A DNA stretch of 64,000 nt from Gammaproteobacteria bacterium (GTDB lineage: Bacteria; Pseudomonadota; Gammaproteobacteria; SURF-13). Below are positions 2,191-56,071 of the stretch, in pieces. The first letter of the stretch is position 1. Every line of letters starts with the position of its first letter. The notes below the pieces were generated by a model. That model made no database searches. It was not told where the DNA came from and was given only the letters and a program-made list of their open reading frames with translations. Location of the stretch: assembly GCA_003599485.1 (NCBI GenBank), contig QZKM01000027.1:1-64000 (forward strand), in the 5' to 3' direction. The position numbers and the translations under genes were made by a program.

Positions 2191-3225
2191 TTAAACCACT
2201 CCCGCGCGCAGCATGTCGTGCATGTTGAAGGCGCCGGCGACTTTGCCTTCCGCGTCCACCACCGGCAGGGCGTTGATCTTGTGTTTCTGCATCAGTTGCA
2301 GCGCCTCCGCGGCGAGCATGCCGGCGTTCACGCGCTTGCAGTTCTTCGTCATCACGTCGGCGACGAGTGTGGCGTGCACGTCCATGCCGTGATCCAGGGT
2401 GCGGCGCAGGTCGCCGTCGGTGAACACCCCGGCGAGACGCCCGTGCGCGTCCACGATCGTGGTCATCCCCAGACCCTTTTTGGTCATCTCCACCAGCGCC
2501 TGACTGAGCTTCACGTCTTCGCGCACCTTGGGGATACGCTCGCCGGTGTGCATGATGTCGTCAATCAACAGCAGCAAACGCCGCCCCAGACGCCCCGCGG
2601 GATGGGAGCGCGCGAAGTCCTGCGCGGTGAAACCGCGCGCCTGCAACAGCGAAACCGCCAGCGCATCGCCCATAACCAGCATGGCGGTAGTGCTGGAGGT
2701 GGGGGCGAGATTGAGCGGACAGGCCTCTTGCTTCACGCTCACGTCTATATGTACATCGGCCATACGCGCCAGCGTGGAGCCGGGGTTGCCGCACAGCGCG
2801 ATGAGCGGCACGCCGAACCGCTTGATGAGCGGCACGATGGTGGTCAGTTCGTCGGTCTCGCCCGAATTGGACAGCGCCAGCACCACGTCCCTGCCGGTAA
2901 TCATGCCAAGATCGCCGTGGCTCGCCTCGGCCGGATGCATGAAGAAGGCCGGGCTGCCAGTGCTGGCCAGCGTGGCCGCGATCTTGCTGCCGATGTGCCC
3001 GGACTTGCCGATGCCGGTAACCACGATGCGTCCTTCGCAGGCGAGCATATGGCGGCAAGCCCGGATAAACGCTTCGCCCACACGCGCGGCGAGCGCGCTC
3101 ACCGCTGCGGCCTCGGTTTCAATCACCGCCAGCGCGAGTTTCTGCAATGCGGCGTCATCGGCCGCAACGGAGGGGGCACTGGAACGTTCCTGTACGGCGT
3201 GCAATGAGGGTTTCTTGTGAGCCAT
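2191..3225 (-). CDS. kdsD: D-arabinose 5-phosphate isomerase KdsD (SIS + CBS domains)
   Basis: GIGKSGHIGSKIAATLASTGSPAFFMHPAEASHGDLGMI SIS motif and C-terminal CBS pair. Confidence 0.93.
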   Translation of the reverse strand: MAHKKPSLHAVQERSSAPSVAADDAALQKLALAVIETEAAAVSALAARVGEAFIRACRHMLACEGRIVVTGIGKSGHIGSKIAATLASTGSPAFFMHPAEASHGDLGMITGRDVVLALSNSGETDELTTIVPLIKRFGVPLIALCGNPGSTLARMADVHIDVSVKQEACPLNLAPTSSTTAMLVMGDALAVSLLQARGFTAQDFARSHPAGRLGRRLLLLIDDIMHTGERIPKVREDVKLSQALVEMTKKGLGMTTIVDAHGRLAGVFTDGDLRRTLDHGMDVHATLVADVMTKNCKRVNAGMLAAEALQLMQKHKINALPVVDAEGKVAGAFNMHDMLRAGVV

Positions 3226-3286
3226 GGTTTAAAGTGTAACGGAATAAAGGCGCGGACAAAACCCCATCTTGCGTTATGATAAGGGA

Positions 3287-3736
3287 ATGCGTTACTGGCT
3301 GATGAAATCCGAACCCGAGGTCTTCGGCATCGAGCATCTGAAACAACGCCGGATTGAGCCGTGGGACGGAGTGAGGAATTACCAGGCGCGCAATTTTTTA
3401 CGCGCAATGCGCGTGGGCGACCGCGCGTTTTTCTATCACTCCAATTGTCCCGCGCCGGGCATTACGGGCATGATGGAAATCGTAAAAAGCGCTTACCCCG
3501 ACGCCACCCAATTTGACCCCACGAGCCCCTATTTCGACCCCAGGAGCGATCCGCAGAATCCGCGCTGGCAGCGTGTGGACGTGCGCTTTGTGCGCGATTT
3601 AAAGCGGCTCGTCAGCCTGCGCGAGATCAAGAACTACCCTGAATTACGCGATCTGCCCCTGGTGCAACGCGGCTCCCGCCTGTCCGTGATGCCGCTCACT
3701 GAACGGCAATGGCGGTTCATTCTCTCCGTGGAATAG
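3287..3736 (+). CDS. EVE domain-containing protein (DUF55/thymocyte nuclear protein-like)
   Basis: MRYWLMKSEPEVFGIEHL...WDGVRNYQARNFLRAMRVGDRAFFYHSN is a typical EVE domain. Confidence 0.9.
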   Translation: MRYWLMKSEPEVFGIEHLKQRRIEPWDGVRNYQARNFLRAMRVGDRAFFYHSNCPAPGITGMMEIVKSAYPDATQFDPTSPYFDPRSDPQNPRWQRVDVRFVRDLKRLVSLREIKNYPELRDLPLVQRGSRLSVMPLTERQWRFILSVE

Positions 3737-3745
3737 ACAGCCGCT

Positions 3746-4003
3746 TCAATGCCAGATGTCACGCCTCGCGCGTTTGCCGTGGAAAACCATTACCAGCACC
3801 CCGGCCAGCAGCGCCAGCACGCCCAACGCCAGCGCCACTCTGGGCATAAGCGCCATGTCGGCCCACAGCATCTGCATATGCTCGACGAAGTGCAGCAATG
3901 AGGACTGCAACAACATTAAAGAATCGGAAATATACAACGCAAGAAAAACGAGCGCCGCGCCGCCGAGCAACAGCACCCAACCCCAGTTCCGTGTGGCAGC
4001 CAT
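3746..4003 (-). CDS. small two-TM hypothetical protein
   Basis: MAATRNWGWVLLLGGAALVFLALYISDSL..., hydrophobic segments; start chosen at 4003. Confidence 0.6.
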   Translation of the reverse strand: MAATRNWGWVLLLGGAALVFLALYISDSLMLLQSSLLHFVEHMQMLWADMALMPRVALALGVLALLAGVLVMVFHGKRARRDIWH

Positions 4004-4082
4004 GGACGCCTCCTTTTTGTGGAGTATTTGAGCAAGGTGTATAACGGAAACCGCGCCATTTGGCAACTGCGCTGTGCGAGCC

Positions 4083-5498
4083 TTACAGCGCCTCCGAAGC
4101 ATAATCCGCCAGGCGCGAGCGTTCGCCGCGGGTGAGCGTCACGTGCCCGCTGTGACGCCAGTTCTTGAAACGGTCCACCACATAGGTAATGCCGGATGTG
4201 GTCTCGGTGAGATACGGCGTGTCTATCTGCGCCACGTTGCCGAGGCACACCACCTTGGCGCCGGGGCCGGCACGCGTGATGAGCGTCTTCATCTGCTTGG
4301 AGGTGAGGTTTTGCGCCTCATCCAGGATGATGAACTTGTTCAAAAATGTGCGCCCGCGCATGAAGTTGAGCGAGCGGATCTTGATCCGGTTGCGCAGCAG
4401 GTCGTTGGTCGCGGCGCGTCCCCAGTCGCCGCCCACGTCGGACTTGGTCAGTACTTCGAGGTTGTCCATCAGCGCGCCCATCCACGGCGTCATCTTTTCT
4501 TCTTCCGTGCCGGGCAGGAAACCGATGTCCTCGCCCACCGGCACGGTGACGCGCGTCATGATGATCTCGCCGTAGCGCTTTTCCTCCAGCACCTGCGCCA
4601 GCCCCGCGGCGAGCGTGAGCAGGGTCTTGCCGCTCCCGGCCACGCCCAGCAGGCTGACAAAATCCACCTCCGGATCCATAAGCAGGTTGAGCGCGAAGTT
4701 CTGCTCGCGGTTCAAGGCATTGATGCCCCACACCGTGTGGCGCGAGCTTTGATAGTCGCGGATCAGTTCAATGGTCGCGCTTTGTCCATCGAGCCGGCGC
4801 ACGATGGCCTCGAAACCGCCGTCGCCCGGGCTGTAGAGAAACTCATTGGGATGCCATTCCTGCACCTGCGGCCCGGTGATTTTGTAAAAGGTGCGCCCGC
4901 TCTCCTTCCACGAGGCCATGTCCTTGCTGTGGCGCTCCCAGAAATCGGCGGGAAGTTCCACGTAACCCTTGAACAGCAGATTGACATCATCCAGCACCTG
5001 GTCGTTGTAGTAGTCCTCGACGTAGATGCCGAGCACCGCCGCCTTGATGCGCAGGTTGATGTCCTTGGAAACCAGTATCACCGCAGCGTCGGGATACTCC
5101 TTCTGCAACGCGAACGCGGTGGCGATGATGTTGTTGTCCGGCTTGTAGCCGGCAAGGCTGTCGTGCGCGCCGCTGAGCAGCGGACGGGTTTGAAAAAACA
5201 ACCGGCCGCGCGCCGCCTCCACGCCCTTGCCGGTATGATTGAACGCGGGCAAGGGCAACCCCTGGTCTATCTCCTCCTTGCTCGCGGCGGCCATCAGATC
5301 GGCAAGGAAGCGGCTCACCTGACGCACGTTGCGCGCCACTTCCGACACGCCCTTCTTGCTCGCGTCCAGCTCCTCCAGCACCACCATGGGGAGATAAATG
5401 TCGTGCTCGTGAAAGCGGAAGATCGCCGTGGGATCGTGCATCAACACGTTGGTGTCGAGCACAAAGATGCGTTTTCCGCTGACCTCTTTTCTGGGCAT
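4083..5498 (-). CDS. PhoH family protein with N-terminal PIN domain
   Basis: N-terminal KRIFVLDTNVLMHDP (PIN), then LLGVAGSGKTLLTLAAGL Walker A and FIILDEAQNLT. Confidence 0.92.
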   Translation of the reverse strand: MPRKEVSGKRIFVLDTNVLMHDPTAIFRFHEHDIYLPMVVLEELDASKKGVSEVARNVRQVSRFLADLMAAASKEEIDQGLPLPAFNHTGKGVEAARGRLFFQTRPLLSGAHDSLAGYKPDNNIIATAFALQKEYPDAAVILVSKDINLRIKAAVLGIYVEDYYNDQVLDDVNLLFKGYVELPADFWERHSKDMASWKESGRTFYKITGPQVQEWHPNEFLYSPGDGGFEAIVRRLDGQSATIELIRDYQSSRHTVWGINALNREQNFALNLLMDPEVDFVSLLGVAGSGKTLLTLAAGLAQVLEEKRYGEIIMTRVTVPVGEDIGFLPGTEEEKMTPWMGALMDNLEVLTKSDVGGDWGRAATNDLLRNRIKIRSLNFMRGRTFLNKFIILDEAQNLTSKQMKTLITRAGPGAKVVCLGNVAQIDTPYLTETTSGITYVVDRFKNWRHSGHVTLTRGERSRLADYASEAL

Positions 5499-5515
5499 AA
5501 ATTCTATTACAGGCG

Positions 5516-5989
5516 CTAATCACCCAGCGCTTTCAACGCCTCCAGCACCTCGTCCACATGCCCGTCCACCTTGACCTTGCGCCACTCTTTGCGCAACACG
5601 CCCTTCTTGTCTATCAAAAACGTGCTGCGCTCGATACCCGTCACCTGTTTGCCGTACATATTTTTTAACTTCATAACATCATACAGCTTGCAGACCTTTT
5701 CATCCTCATCGGAGAGCAGATCGAAGGTGAAGCCCTCCTTGTTCTTGAACAACTCGTGCGACTTCACGCTGTCGCGCGACACCCCCAGCACCACGGCGTT
5801 GAGCTTTTTAAACCCGGCCTGCTCGTCACGGAAATTCTGCCCCTCCAGGGTGCAACCGGGCGTGTTGTCCCTGGGATAAAAATACAACACCACGTTGCCG
5901 CCCTTGAACGCGCTGAGCTTCAAGGTCTTCCCGCCGGTGGCGGGCAATTCAAAATCGGGGGCGGGTTTGCCAATGACCGCCTTACTCAT
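5516..5989 (-). CDS. bcp: thioredoxin-dependent thiol peroxidase (Bcp/PrxQ)
   Basis: YFYPRDNTPGCTLEGQNFRD peroxiredoxin Q motif. Confidence 0.93.
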   Translation of the reverse strand: MSKAVIGKPAPDFELPATGGKTLKLSAFKGGNVVLYFYPRDNTPGCTLEGQNFRDEQAGFKKLNAVVLGVSRDSVKSHELFKNKEGFTFDLLSDEDEKVCKLYDVMKLKNMYGKQVTGIERSTFLIDKKGVLRKEWRKVKVDGHVDEVLEALKALGD

Positions 5990-27003: not shown

Positions 27004-27039
27004 ACAATAAAAAACCCGCCAATGGCGGGTTTTTTATTG
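27004..27039. terminator. Rho-independent terminator (bidirectional) after rpmG
   Basis: caataaaaaacccgccaatggcgggttttttattg: cccgcc/ggcggg stem flanked by A- and T-tracts. Confidence 0.88.
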
Positions 27040-27058
27040 TCCGGTGTGAAGGCCGGGG

Positions 27059-50969: not shown

Positions 50970-51453
50970 AAGGCCCAAGCTCCCCGCCCACGCGTGGCGT
51001 AATCCGGTGCACTGGCTGGCCTTTGGTCTCGGCCTCGGCGCGCTGCCTTACGCGCCCGGCACCTTCGGCACCCTGCTTGGCGTGGCGTTGTACCTCGCCA
51101 TGCAGTCTTTGCCGCTGTGGCAGTATCTCGCGCTGACCTCGCTGCTGTTCGTGACCGGCATCGCACTCTGCGCCAGCGCCGCGCGCGCGCTCGGTGTGCG
51201 CGACCATCCCGGCATCGTGTGGGACGAAGCGGTGGGCTATCTCATCACCATGTTTGCCGCCCCTCCGGGCTGGGCCTGGATGCTGGCGGGCTTCATCCTG
51301 TTCCGTCTGTTTGACATCTGGAAGCCGTGGCCGGTACGCCTGTGCGATCAAAAAATTCACGGCGGCTTCGGCATCATGCTGGACGATGCGCTGGCCGCCC
51401 TTTATTCCATGTTAGTATTGCACTCCGGTTATTTTTTATATGGACAAATTTGA
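50953..51453 (+). CDS. pgpA: phosphatidylglycerophosphatase A
   Basis: HWLAFGLGLGALPYAPGTFGTLLGVALYL; HPGIVWDEAVGYLITM; IHGGFGIMLDDALAALYSM. Confidence 0.94.
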   Translation: MTTSGKRPKLPAHAWRNPVHWLAFGLGLGALPYAPGTFGTLLGVALYLAMQSLPLWQYLALTSLLFVTGIALCASAARALGVRDHPGIVWDEAVGYLITMFAAPPGWAWMLAGFILFRLFDIWKPWPVRLCDQKIHGGFGIMLDDALAALYSMLVLHSGYFLYGQI

Positions 51454-52300
51454 AAAACTGCGCGACATGGAATCGTTCAGCGATGACATGTTCAATCGTA
51501 TCTTTGGATTCCAGCAGAAGCTGCATCCGGCGTGGAATACCACATTATCCTTCGACCAGCGCATCCAGGATTTGCCGTTGCATTATCTGGTATTCAGCAA
51601 CCCTGATCGTGATCCCAAACAGTTCGGCTCCACGGTTGCGCCGTATTACCCGCTGCGCGGCGAGATGCGCACGCTGGCGCACTATATTAAACAGGTGGCG
51701 CAAAATCCCGTGGTGTGCGATCTGCACCCCGGCAACGGCTTCACCGGCAGCCTGCTGGCGCGCGAGGGCGTAAAGGTGATCGGCGTGCGTGACGCGCAGG
51801 CCAAGCCAAACCAGATCAAGGACTTTTACGACGGCGCCTGTTATGAAATGCGTGAGGCGCGCATCGAGCAGATTGGTTTTGCGTTTGACGTGGCGCTCTC
51901 CTCCTGGATGCCCGCGGGCGAAAACTTCACGCCGCAAATACTCCGGTACACACCCAAACTCATCATCTTTATCCACACTGACCACGTGGACGAAACCACT
52001 CACATCCCCCAGACCGGCACGCCTGAGGCGTTCCGTGACTTGCCGGCGCGCTACCAATTAATCGCCGAGTGGAGCATCACGCGCCCGCAAGACATGTTCC
52101 ACGAAATCTGGCCGGACTTGAGTCAAAATATCGAAGAAACGCGCCGGGTAAAAATCTACGCCGACGCACCGTTTCATCACCTGGCAGCTCCAGGCGACGA
52201 ATTGGGCGGTGAAAAATACCCGTGGGAGAATGAACTGGACATGATTCTGCTGGCGCTGGAGGCCAAGACCCACTTGCGCGCCATGGGGCATCAGCTATAG
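51440..52300 (+). CDS. uncharacterised conserved-looking protein with SAM-methyltransferase-like region
   Basis: PVVCDLHPGNGFTGSLLAREGVKVIGVRDAQ resembles a Rossmann motif I/II; 286 aa, overlaps the pgpA end. Confidence 0.7.
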   Translation: MDKFEKLRDMESFSDDMFNRIFGFQQKLHPAWNTTLSFDQRIQDLPLHYLVFSNPDRDPKQFGSTVAPYYPLRGEMRTLAHYIKQVAQNPVVCDLHPGNGFTGSLLAREGVKVIGVRDAQAKPNQIKDFYDGACYEMREARIEQIGFAFDVALSSWMPAGENFTPQILRYTPKLIIFIHTDHVDETTHIPQTGTPEAFRDLPARYQLIAEWSITRPQDMFHEIWPDLSQNIEETRRVKIYADAPFHHLAAPGDELGGEKYPWENELDMILLALEAKTHLRAMGHQL

Positions 52301-53128
52301 AAAGCGCATGGACAGGTCAACGGCGCGCACGTTTTTTGTAAGGTCGCCCACGGAGATAAAATCCACCCCGGTTTCCGCGATGGCGCGGACGTTTTCCAGC
52401 GTCACGCCGCCGGAGACTTCCAGCAGGGCGCGCTTACCGGTTTCACGCACCGCGACGTTCAGATCGGGCAGGATGAAATTGTCGAGCAGGATGCGTTGGG
52501 CGCCCGCATGCAGCGCCTCATCCAACTCAACCAGATTACGCACCTCGACCTCAACCAGACTATCCGGTGGCGCGGAAATCTGCGCCGCGCGCAGCGCGGC
52601 GGTCAACGAGCCTGCGGCGCGGATGTGGTTTTCCTTGATTAGAATTCCGTCGTAGAGGCCCATGCGGTGATTGTGGCCGCCGCCGCAACTGACCGCGTAT
52701 TTTTGCGCGCGGCGCAGGCCGGGCAGGGTCTTGCGCGTGTCCAGCACTTTAACGCCCGTGCCGCGCACCGCATCCGCATAACAGCGCGCCAGCGTCGCCG
52801 TGCCGGACAAGGTCTGCAAAAAATTCAGCGCCGTGCGCTCGCCGCTGAGCAGGGCGCGCGCCGGGCCCTGCACCGTGCACACGACCTGATCCGGCGCTAT
52901 GGCCTCACCGTCCGCCGCGCGCCAGGCCACCCTCGCCGCCGCATCCAGTTCACGAAATACGGCGTCAAACCACGCCGCGCCGCACAGCACCGCCGCCTCG
53001 CGGCTGACGACCTCCGCCCTGGCTGAAGCGCCGGGCGAGATGAGCGCCGCGGTAAGATCACCCGCGCCGATATCCTCGGCCAGCGCGCGGCGCACGTCTT
53101 CAAGAATAGTTGGCGCAGGCGGCAACAT
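52295..53128 (-). CDS. nadC: nicotinate-nucleotide pyrophosphorylase (quinolinate phosphoribosyltransferase)
   Basis: LNFLQTLSGTATLARCYADAV; DTRKTLPGLRRAQKYAVSCGGGHNHRMGLYDGILIKENHI. Confidence 0.96.
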   Translation of the reverse strand: MLPPAPTILEDVRRALAEDIGAGDLTAALISPGASARAEVVSREAAVLCGAAWFDAVFRELDAAARVAWRAADGEAIAPDQVVCTVQGPARALLSGERTALNFLQTLSGTATLARCYADAVRGTGVKVLDTRKTLPGLRRAQKYAVSCGGGHNHRMGLYDGILIKENHIRAAGSLTAALRAAQISAPPDSLVEVEVRNLVELDEALHAGAQRILLDNFILPDLNVAVRETGKRALLEVSGGVTLENVRAIAETGVDFISVGDLTKNVRAVDLSMRFL

Positions 53129-53215
53129 GCGCCTAGGGTAAGGTCAAACCATAAAAAAGACCAGTCTGGCCTCCCGTGACGCTGCACCGGGTAGCGGCGG
53201 ATGCAGTGAGCGCCG

Positions 53216-54949
53216 CTATCTGCTCTTTTCCAAGGCGGATTTCAACACCGACGCCACGTGGCCGTTGGTCTGTTCCGCCTCCTTCATGTGTTCCAGCAAC
53301 GCCTGCACGCCGGCCTGTACGCCTTTTTCGCACAAACCCAACAGCTCTTTATCACTGGGCAACTTCCCGGACTGAAACTTTTCCTGTTTTGCGGTCAACA
53401 AGGTGTGCAACACGCCGCCGATCATGAACTCATCCAGCATCTTGAGACCGTTCACCGGCACCTTGATGCGGCGCGGGTCAAGCAATTCCTGGAACGGGAA
53501 TTTTCTGATAAACAGCGGCCACCAGAGCCGCACATTGCATTGCCCGGCGTAGTTCCCCAGCACGTTGATCGCGTGATGTCCGATGACCCAGATCGGCATA
53601 TGGATATGCAGGTCGGCCACGAGCGGGAAGCGGAACAGGCTGCCCCACAAGGCGCGCCCCGCCATGCATTGCAGTTTGGCGGGCGGCGCCAGCCAGATCG
53701 CCACGTTGCGGTAGTAGTTCTTGATGCGCTCCAGATAGGCCTGGCCGGAAGGCGTATCGTTGAAGCCGTTGTACTTGCGCGCGTCGCTGGAACCGAACAG
53801 ACTGGAGCGACCGGTGAGGTTCACGTCGAACCAGTGGTGCCAGGTTGAGTCGGTAATCACGCGCCCCACGTTCACGCAGTGACCGTTGTAGGCGCCTATG
53901 GCGCCGAACTCCTTGCCGTTGGCCTGCCCTTTGGTGACGTCGCTGGTGTTGGTGTGATCGTTCTGCACCCGCGCCCAGGCGATGATCTCCGGTGACAAGG
54001 GACTGCCTGATAAATCGGGGTATTCACGCGCGCTGTAGGCGTTGAAGGTCAAGGTATCGGTGAGCGCGGACGGCGTCACCACCTCGCCCTCGTGCGGATG
54101 ATCGGGCAGGATAGTGATCGGTCCGTCGGTGCCGCACAGCACCGGGTGCGGCGAGCGTGACCAGAAGTACGGCCAGTGCCAGTGCAGCGGGTGCAGGTGG
54201 AAATGCGCGCAGTGGTGATGATAATACCAGCGCAACCGGATGTTCATGGGGATGTCGTCGGACTCGTCGTCGAAGCTGTACTGCGCCGACTCGTCCGTGC
54301 CCATGGTGCCGGGGTCGTCATGCCCTTTGCGGTTGGTATCATGCCGGTCCGGCCCGGAGCCCGGCGGCACGCCATCGGCGACACGCCACTTGCGCATGTT
54401 GCGCACGCGCGGAATGCGGTAGCACAACGCCTCGCCGAGATTGTAATGATCGCCCATCGCCAGCACACCGCCGCCTCTATCCATCCAGCGGAACAGGACT
54501 TCCAGTTCGGCGTCGGTCAGCGATACAGGCGGGCTGCCGGCCACGCTGGTACCGCTGTTGAAGCCGTAAAACCAGACTTCATCGTAGTCGTCAATGTTGA
54601 AGCCGGCCTGGGTGAAGGAAAAATTTTCGTGGTGCGGGCCATACAGGGCAAAGGCGGGGTCCGCCGCGGCCGGCTTAAATAGATCGGTCTGGCGGTGCGC
54701 GCGCGTGATGTCGAACTTCACCCACCATTCAGGATTGAGACGCAGCGTATCCAGCACCGTGCTCAAGCCGAAGTAAGAGTGGTTAAATGAAACCTGATAA
54801 TCCACCAGCATCAGGATTTTCACGCGACAGGGCTTGAGAAAGATCGGAAAATCGAGCAGCCCCGCATCTATCAGGGCGAAACGTTCGCGTTGTATGTTTT
54901 TCACGACGGCCAGATCAGTAAGACTCGGATTTTTATTTTTGTTAGCCAT
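53216..54949 (-). CDS. orphan uncharacterised protein (~577 aa), N-terminal ThuA/GATase-like region, His/Trp-rich segment
   Basis: MANKNKNPSLTDLAVVKNIQRERF...VKILMLVDYQVSFNHSYFGLSTVLDTL...DDYDEVWFYGFNSG...LFRWMDRGGGVLAMGDHYNLGEAL; RWYYHHHCAHFHLHPLHWHWPYFW; AGGAG SD upstream of ATG 54949. Confidence 0.75.
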   Translation of the reverse strand: MANKNKNPSLTDLAVVKNIQRERFALIDAGLLDFPIFLKPCRVKILMLVDYQVSFNHSYFGLSTVLDTLRLNPEWWVKFDITRAHRQTDLFKPAAADPAFALYGPHHENFSFTQAGFNIDDYDEVWFYGFNSGTSVAGSPPVSLTDAELEVLFRWMDRGGGVLAMGDHYNLGEALCYRIPRVRNMRKWRVADGVPPGSGPDRHDTNRKGHDDPGTMGTDESAQYSFDDESDDIPMNIRLRWYYHHHCAHFHLHPLHWHWPYFWSRSPHPVLCGTDGPITILPDHPHEGEVVTPSALTDTLTFNAYSAREYPDLSGSPLSPEIIAWARVQNDHTNTSDVTKGQANGKEFGAIGAYNGHCVNVGRVITDSTWHHWFDVNLTGRSSLFGSSDARKYNGFNDTPSGQAYLERIKNYYRNVAIWLAPPAKLQCMAGRALWGSLFRFPLVADLHIHMPIWVIGHHAINVLGNYAGQCNVRLWWPLFIRKFPFQELLDPRRIKVPVNGLKMLDEFMIGGVLHTLLTAKQEKFQSGKLPSDKELLGLCEKGVQAGVQALLEHMKEAEQTNGHVASVLKSALEKSR

Positions 54950-55041
54950 ATTGATGATCTCCTGTAACGATTGGTATCTAACGGATTTTTTACATATAGA
55001 TCGTACAGCCATATTTAGTTTACAGAACCATAATTTTTTCC

Positions 55042-55063
55042 ATATACCTATAAGGAGGTATAT
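55042..55063. promoter_or_regulatory. palindrome in the intergenic region upstream of the orphan His-rich gene
   Basis: ATATACCT-ATAAGG-AGGTATAT perfect 8-bp arms, ~93 bp upstream of the ATG, AT-rich surroundings. Confidence 0.6.
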
Positions 55064-55099
55064 TGCGCTTGTCAAAAATCCGGCGCATTCCAAAAAATT

Positions 55100-56071
55100 T
55101 TACTGATGCGCCTGCGCAGCGCGCGTCAGACGGTCGCGCACCGCGAGCCAGGCCTCATCTTCCGGCACGGCTTCGAGCAACAGCACGTCGTACCGGGCGG
55201 CATCGGCCGCGCGCAGCGTGGCGTATAAGTCGTGGGCGTAGGACACCGGATCGGAAGACAGAAAATAATAGTGCGCCGGAATGATTTCCATGCGTTGAGT
55301 GCAGGCAATCACCGCCACGCGTTTGTTTTGCGCCAGCAGCGCGCGGATTTGCTGCTCCAGATTTTCACGCGCGGCGATGCAGAGAGGTGTGCTGGGCGCA
55401 TAATGCGCGGCCAGCAGGCCGGGGGCGCGCAGGCGTTTTTCTTCCACGCCGCCGAGCCCGACGGCGACGCCGAGCGCGGCGCTCAACTGCGGTGGGGAGA
55501 TGGCGCCGGGACGTAAAATCACCGGCTGCGCATCGAGCAAACTGACGATGGTGGACTCCAGTCCCACGCGGCATGGACCGCCGTCCAGTATCATGTCCAC
55601 CTCCTCGCCCAATTCGTCACGCACGTGTTGCGCGGTGGTAGGACTGACATGGCCGAAGCGGTTGGCCGAAGGCGCGGCGACGGCGCCGCCGAATTGTTGC
55701 AGCAGCGCCAGGGCCACCGGATGGCCCGGCACGCGCAGGCCCACGCTGTCCTGCCCTCCGGTGATGCTGTCCGGGACGATGCGCGCGCGTTTTAAAATCA
55801 GGGTGAGCGGCCCGGGCCAGAATTTTTCCGCGAGCCGATACGCCGCGTCCGGAATATCACGCGCCCATCTCTCAAGATAAGAGGCATCCGGCAAATGTAC
55901 GATGAGCGGGTGGTCCGGAGGGCGCCGCTTGATGGCGAAGATGCGCGCGACCGCCCTGGGATTGAGCGCGTCCGCGCCCAGGCCGTAAACCGTTTCGGTG
56001 GGAAACGCCACGACCAGGCCGGCGCGCAGGCACCCGGCGGCGCGCGCGATATCCTCGCGCATTGCTGTCAT
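55100..56071 (-). CDS. tsaC: L-threonylcarbamoyladenylate synthase (Sua5/YrdC)
   Basis: GLVVAFPTETVYGLGADALNPRAVARIFAIKRRPPDHPLIVHL; C-terminal Sua5 domain. Confidence 0.95.
   Translation of the reverse strand: MTAMREDIARAAGCLRAGLVVAFPTETVYGLGADALNPRAVARIFAIKRRPPDHPLIVHLPDASYLERWARDIPDAAYRLAEKFWPGPLTLILKRARIVPDSITGGQDSVGLRVPGHPVALALLQQFGGAVAAPSANRFGHVSPTTAQHVRDELGEEVDMILDGGPCRVGLESTIVSLLDAQPVILRPGAISPPQLSAALGVAVGLGGVEEKRLRAPGLLAAHYAPSTPLCIAARENLEQQIRALLAQNKRVAVIACTQRMEIIPAHYYFLSSDPVSYAHDLYATLRAADAARYDVLLLEAVPEDEAWLAVRDRLTRAAQAHQ

Follow-up and report, generated by a model that had tools for sequence, protein, structure and literature searches.

Between nadC and tsaC the window, as the whole stretch of 64,000 nucleotides analysed is called here, carries a single gene for a 577-residue protein. 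The locus raises the question of what this protein is and how its gene came to stand at this site. The single gene, the AGGAG site, the low-GC leader and the palindrome described in an earlier note on this DNA are all present (Table 1), and the N-terminal and His/Trp/Cys-rich peptides quoted there occur in the translation letter for letter. Upstream of the gene the sequence reads ACAGGAG-N9-ATG, with AGGAG 9 nt from the start codon. The flanking genes, nadC (52295-53128) and tsaC (55100-56071), lie on the same strand, and the names that they had been given fit their sequences.

Table 1. Coordinates of the gene, its protein features and its surroundings in the window
Feature	Position	Strand	Basis and remarks
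Gene for the 577-aa protein, ATG start, stop TAG	53216..54949	-	Translation and 57-row family alignment
AGGAG ribosome binding site in ACAGGAGATCATCAATATG	54958..54964 (approximate)	-	Sequence
Core alpha/beta domain, predicted ThuA/GATase-like fold, residues 41-421	53687..54829	-	AlphaFold2 model (pTM 0.90) and Foldseek
Elbow motif GGVLAMGDHYNLG, residues 160-172, invariant D167 and H168	54434..54472	-	57 members; aligns with the ThuA GGGIVAVH elbow
His/Trp/Cys-rich insertion (HHHC...HWHW), residues ~243-258	54176..54223	-	Clade-specific; family alignment
LPDHPHEG, residues 281-288	54086..54109	-	LPDHxHEG invariant in 57/57 full-size members; PAHPHEG in the minimal branch versus PDHPHEG here
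GRVITDSTWHHW, residues 362-373, invariant H371 and H372	53831..53866	-	At the place of ThuA GRVFYxxxGH, by eye; hhalign did not recover this
C-terminal helical region, residues 422-577, variable	53219..53686	-	AlphaFold2 model and comparison with the minimal branch, which lacks it
Leader of 33% GC (150 bp)	54950..55099	-	Composition; window 62% GC
Perfect palindrome ATATACCT-N6-AGGTATAT	55042..55063	.	Sequence; absent upstream of homologues; function unproven
Presence/absence block of ~1.92 kb (1,921 bp), tsaC-nadC	53169..55089	.	Flank alignment with G001 contig C157

A bacterial family and its invariant residues

The window protein has no match in Pfam or NCBIfam and none by sequence in the PDB. 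This is in agreement with the earlier note, in which no named family was recognised, and no strong match to an annotated family was found. Nor did the PDB give a match, by sequence or by profile, when the family was searched together with the window protein, and Pfam, NCBIfam, PADLOC and PHROGs returned nothing credible for the protein and 46 relatives. In PADLOC-DB there is no match for the window protein, and among the 47 members there are two matches, each of a single member and at chance level. A library of viral structures contained no match at E < 0.2. Searches for literature on this protein family found nothing.

Two distant relatives were found in genome searches. A pattern derived from an alignment of three sequences was then scanned against 85,462 species genomes, yielding 56 loci in Bacteroidota, Actinomycetota, Pseudomonadota, Acidobacteriota, Myxococcota, Gemmatimonadota, Ignavibacteriota and Cyanobacteriota; because the scan required two short motifs, this number is a lower bound. 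Within a sample of Gammaproteobacteria, a family member is carried by 7 of 369 genomes. There is also a second, minimal branch of proteins about 295 residues long and about 25% identical. Its genes occur on plasmids from Trichormus, Nostoc, Sphingobium, Lichenicola, Variovorax and Sphingomonas, and two more chromosomes of the phylum also carry members. Its proteins, which come from plasmids and from Alphaproteobacteria, are annotated as hypothetical (for example WP_011316748.1, from plasmid C of Trichormus variabilis), and the three that were searched have no Pfam match either.

The 577-residue protein almost certainly belongs to a real, unnamed bacterial family that is rare and patchily distributed. 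The family extends over at least eight phyla and has no model in the searched releases of Pfam, NCBIfam, PADLOC and PHROGs; once it has a name, many "hypothetical proteins" could be annotated. The minimal branch provides a compact protein for structure determination and assay.

Twenty positions are invariant in all 57 full-size members: M156, G161, D167, H168, G172, R181, D231, H268, L281, P282, D283, H284, H286, E287, G288, G362, H371, H372, N377 and N415. Six of these are His, three are Asp and one is Glu. The minimal branch consists of a single domain, homologous to the core of the larger proteins and having the same invariant His, Asp, Glu and Asn residues. It keeps D167, H168, H268, H284, H286, E287, G288, H371, H372, N377 and N415, has Ala in place of D283 and lacks R181.

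The unusual richness in His pointed out earlier is confirmed, with 8 His in 30 residues of the window protein, whereas the median for the family in the corresponding segment is 0. The stretch is an insertion of 12-14 residues that the window protein shares with two homologues, L044 (64% identity) and L046 (62%), and that the remaining 54 members lack. In this three-member clade the loop has 8-11 His and a conserved HHHC, and the run ends in HW-x-W or HWYW. Pairwise identity among the three is 67-75% in the insertion and 69-75% in the core. The AlphaFold2 pLDDT is below 50 at residues 248-262, in the region of the insertion. The earlier note had also considered that the stretch might be disordered and not conserved. 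The low pLDDT and the absence from most of the family bear this out, but the stretch is conserved in the two nearest homologues. Judged from the family alignment, the insertion is an elaboration of one clade and not the candidate active site.

Fold of the core and the candidate active site

The AlphaFold2 model of the window protein has a pLDDT of 87.8 and a pTM of 0.90. Upon comparison with the PDB using Foldseek, the top match was the ThuA-like protein 4jqs (E 0.05, probability 0.80), with IFT52, the glutaminase domain of CTP synthase and other amidotransferases lower down the list. The matches were clearer for a modelled relative of 384 residues (L063, pTM 0.80). These include 8aa2_G (E 3.6e-6), the ThuA-like 1t0b (1.7e-4) and 4jqs (1.5e-3), with a probability of 1.00 for ThuA-like proteins, as well as the IFT52 N-terminus (1.4e-4 to 1e-3, TM up to 0.66) and GH42 beta-galactosidases. 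The chain 8aa2_G is the levan-binding protein of a Bacteroides utilisome, and the C-terminal domain of this protein has been described as similar to the ThuA-like 1T0B (PMC7618045). No solved relative with a bound metal was found.

The models make it very probable that the core has a ThuA/class I glutamine amidotransferase-like fold, a fold class that by Foldseek is common to the family and the ThuA-like proteins (PF06283; PDB 1t0b, 4jqs, 4e5v). When the family profile was compared with 12 PF06283 domains in hhalign, the GGGV strand and the elbow were aligned with a two-residue shift, at single-pair E values of 0.005-0.014, which are weak. By eye, the His of the ThuA motif GRVxxxxxGH falls at H371. 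A full register of the ThuA motifs, including an HP block and a DE block, also looks good by eye; it was not reproduced by hhalign and is not relied on here.

The family differs from ThuA-like proteins in having GDH at the elbow instead of a single His, and it adds the LPDHPHEG block and the C-terminal helical region. The window protein has no match to the ThuA model (PF06283) even at E 10, and the 47 members have none at E 0.1. The ThuA/amidotransferase-like N-terminus proposed in the earlier note therefore stands as a fold, through 1t0b and 4jqs, but the protein lies outside the curated cut-off of Pfam ThuA and lacks the amidotransferase Cys. With its clan relatives, the class I glutamine amidotransferases and DJ-1/PfpI, the family has in common the alpha/beta fold and a conserved elbow after the GGG strand. 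Asp-His is present at this elbow in 57 of 57 members, whereas none has the catalytic Cys of the class I glutamine amidotransferases. A Pfam match to DJ-1_PfpI was found neither for the window protein and its 46 relatives nor for three minimal-branch proteins. The N-terminal domains of IFT52 and OST48 (GIFT-type) are related by the fold match to IFT52 given above and by weak Pfam matches of two members to OST48_N (E 0.007). These domains are eukaryotic and are not known to be catalytic.

The best-known enzymes of the ThuA/amidotransferase fold rest on Cys. In the present family, conservation points to D167-H168, H268, D283-H284-x-H286-E287 and H371-H372, and not to the His-rich stretch, as a candidate active site. 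The invariant His, Asp and Glu residues make a metal-dependent enzyme plausible, and the residues of this candidate site, which are present family-wide, appear to be better support for metal dependence than the His-rich stretch.

The site, its neighbours and the leader

In a second genome of the same genus (G001) tsaC is followed directly by nadC, with 9 bp in place of the 1,921 bp found here. The sequences to either side of this point match, and the TsaC proteins of the two genomes share 86% identity. The empty site represents presence in one genome and absence in the other, the gene having been either gained here or lost there. Gain in the window lineage is the simpler reading, because every carrier of the His-rich clade is the only one in its own family sample and because the clade joins Alpha- and Gammaproteobacteria, where errors in the binning of metagenome-assembled genomes are possible. 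The other two carriers are 1 of 41 and 1 of 7 genomes in their family samples. The family of the window genome has one intact copy and, in G004, a decayed C-terminal fragment at a different place. The suggestion that the gene was possibly acquired is supported by the empty site in the sister genome and by the very patchy distribution. The GC3 of the gene is equal to that of the flanking genes, showing that any acquisition was not recent by composition. Upstream of the decayed fragment, a small Cys-rich protein and a DoxX-like gene are encoded (L008, 5176-7110).

Family members also occur next to phage genes and on plasmids. A contig from IMG/VR (L009) has a truncated member at 1-1083 and, at 2874-5766 on the other strand, the major head and portal genes of a phage; this member is either phage cargo or the flank of a prophage. 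Four loci of the minimal branch (L107, L119, L120, L121) are plasmid-borne among stress genes, with many transposases nearby. The plasmid neighbours of this branch include OsmC, Dps, GroEL, DJ-1/PfpI, zwf, gnd, Zn-alcohol dehydrogenase and UvrA, and these genes suggest a stress or detoxification role for that branch. By analogy, we infer that the window gene might have a similar role; it has no stress-type neighbours itself. Literature searches for a stress island matching the plasmid neighbours found nothing.

No operon partner is conserved across the family, and most members stand alone among unrelated genes. Four distant members (L059, L062, L064, L065) adjoin TPR-CHAT genes, and ECF sigma genes are situated upstream of L059 and L065; these loci may represent a protease-linked signalling module. 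Downstream of the Runella member come two trypsin-like genes; the latter of the two matches the NARROW LEAF 1 N-terminal domain (L011, 9798-11824). Next to a subtilase that has a PKD domain there is a member of 1205 residues, extended by a long additional C-terminal region (L100, 4883-11026). Peptidase neighbours as a general rule were rejected, because they are found at a minority of loci only. In unrelated bacteria, a full-size member (L055) and a minimal one (L117) are each directly downstream of what reads as clpS-clpA.

The palindrome in the leader has a TTGACA box just upstream of it on the minus strand. The arrangement TTGACA-N17-TATAGG is visible in the leader by eye only, and a sigma-70 consensus scan on the strand of the gene found no promoter. 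With up to 3 mismatches allowed, the palindrome has no second copy in the window; a search of the 1.69 Mb assembly allowing up to 2 mismatches found none either. Perfect 8-bp inverted repeats with a spacer of 3-10 nt have 34 placements, partly redundant or overlapping, in 64 kb. The chance of such a palindrome in a 150-bp leader of equal composition is estimated to be about 4-8%, so that by itself the palindrome is weak evidence. It was not found in the upstream regions of the ten homologues tested, including the two loop-bearing relatives. With no second copy in the genome and none upstream of these ten, its role as the operator of a regulon was rejected. The dedicated regulation proposed in the earlier note did not find support, and an operator specific to the gene is possible but unproven, since the genome has the palindrome once only and the homologues lack it upstream.

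A possible function and its alternatives

The protein is probably a metal-dependent ThuA-fold enzyme of a new family, encoded by a mobile one-gene cargo; the probability of this explanation as a whole is put at roughly 50%. The enzyme would be cytoplasmic, its ThuA/class I glutamine amidotransferase-like core lacking the Cys nucleophile of the amidotransferases. The residues of the candidate site would be expected to bind one or two metal ions, and the bound metal would activate water, by which a small molecule is hydrolysed or otherwise modified. In the clade of the window protein, the His/Trp/Cys-rich loop, adjacent in sequence to the site, might capture metal or cover the site. From the pattern of conserved residues, the odds that the window protein performs metal-dependent catalysis appear to be about even. 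Because the site in the same genus is empty, the clade carriers stand alone, one member lies beside phage genes and others lie on plasmids, the gene may be a cargo that moves between bacteria, probably useful to its host in a particular niche, for example through stress tolerance or detoxification. A more far-reaching scheme is offered tentatively: a family of mobile metalloenzymes in which an Asp-His/DHxHE/HH metal centre replaces Cys, a His/Trp/Cys lid in one clade loads or guards the metal, and the gene is portable cargo for stress or detoxification on phages, plasmids and chromosomal sites. Should the metal centre prove real, the ThuA/amidotransferase fold would gain a new chemistry.

The same core might instead belong to a non-enzymatic protein that binds a sugar or other ligand, the conserved residues being structural or ligand-binding and having no part in catalysis. 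The closest fold matches do include non-enzymes, the levan-binding 8aa2_G and IFT52. However, six invariant His together with Asp and Glu, maintained across phyla and in a branch that is about 25% identical, exceed what ligand binding usually needs, and a pure binding protein seems rather unlikely. A metal storage or chelating protein, in which the loop is the functional part, the core a scaffold and the palindrome a metal-responsive operator, would explain why 8-11 His and the HHHC are kept in all three members of the clade. It is quite improbable, given that 54 members have no such loop while the core residues are invariant, and that the unique palindrome is absent upstream of both loop-bearing relatives.

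The protease genes described above are what would be expected if the protein acted in a protease-linked conflict or stress response, as effector or as target, and were activated through cleavage by a CHAT, trypsin-like or subtilisin-like protease. Four members adjoin TPR-CHAT genes, with ECF sigma genes nearby in two cases, and the Runella and 1205-residue members have trypsin-like and subtilase neighbours. Such a neighbour is lacking in most members, among them the window gene and its two nearest relatives, and there is no PADLOC match, making this explanation very doubtful. As regards the origin of the gene, both losses and transfers are compatible with the family tree. A gene of an old lineage, inherited vertically and lost from most relatives without involvement of mobile elements, would have the GC3 of its neighbours and could leave a decayed fragment in a genome of the same family, as observed. 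Such a history is nevertheless not very probable in view of the empty site in the sister species, the single occurrences in three distant families and the family copies on phage and plasmids.

Two further features of the window are of minor interest. A 286-codon reading frame at 51440-52300, after pgpA, reads as methyltransferase-type and has no clear identity. At 27004-27040 there is a 17-bp perfect stem with runs of A and T on both sides, which is likely to be a bidirectional terminator.
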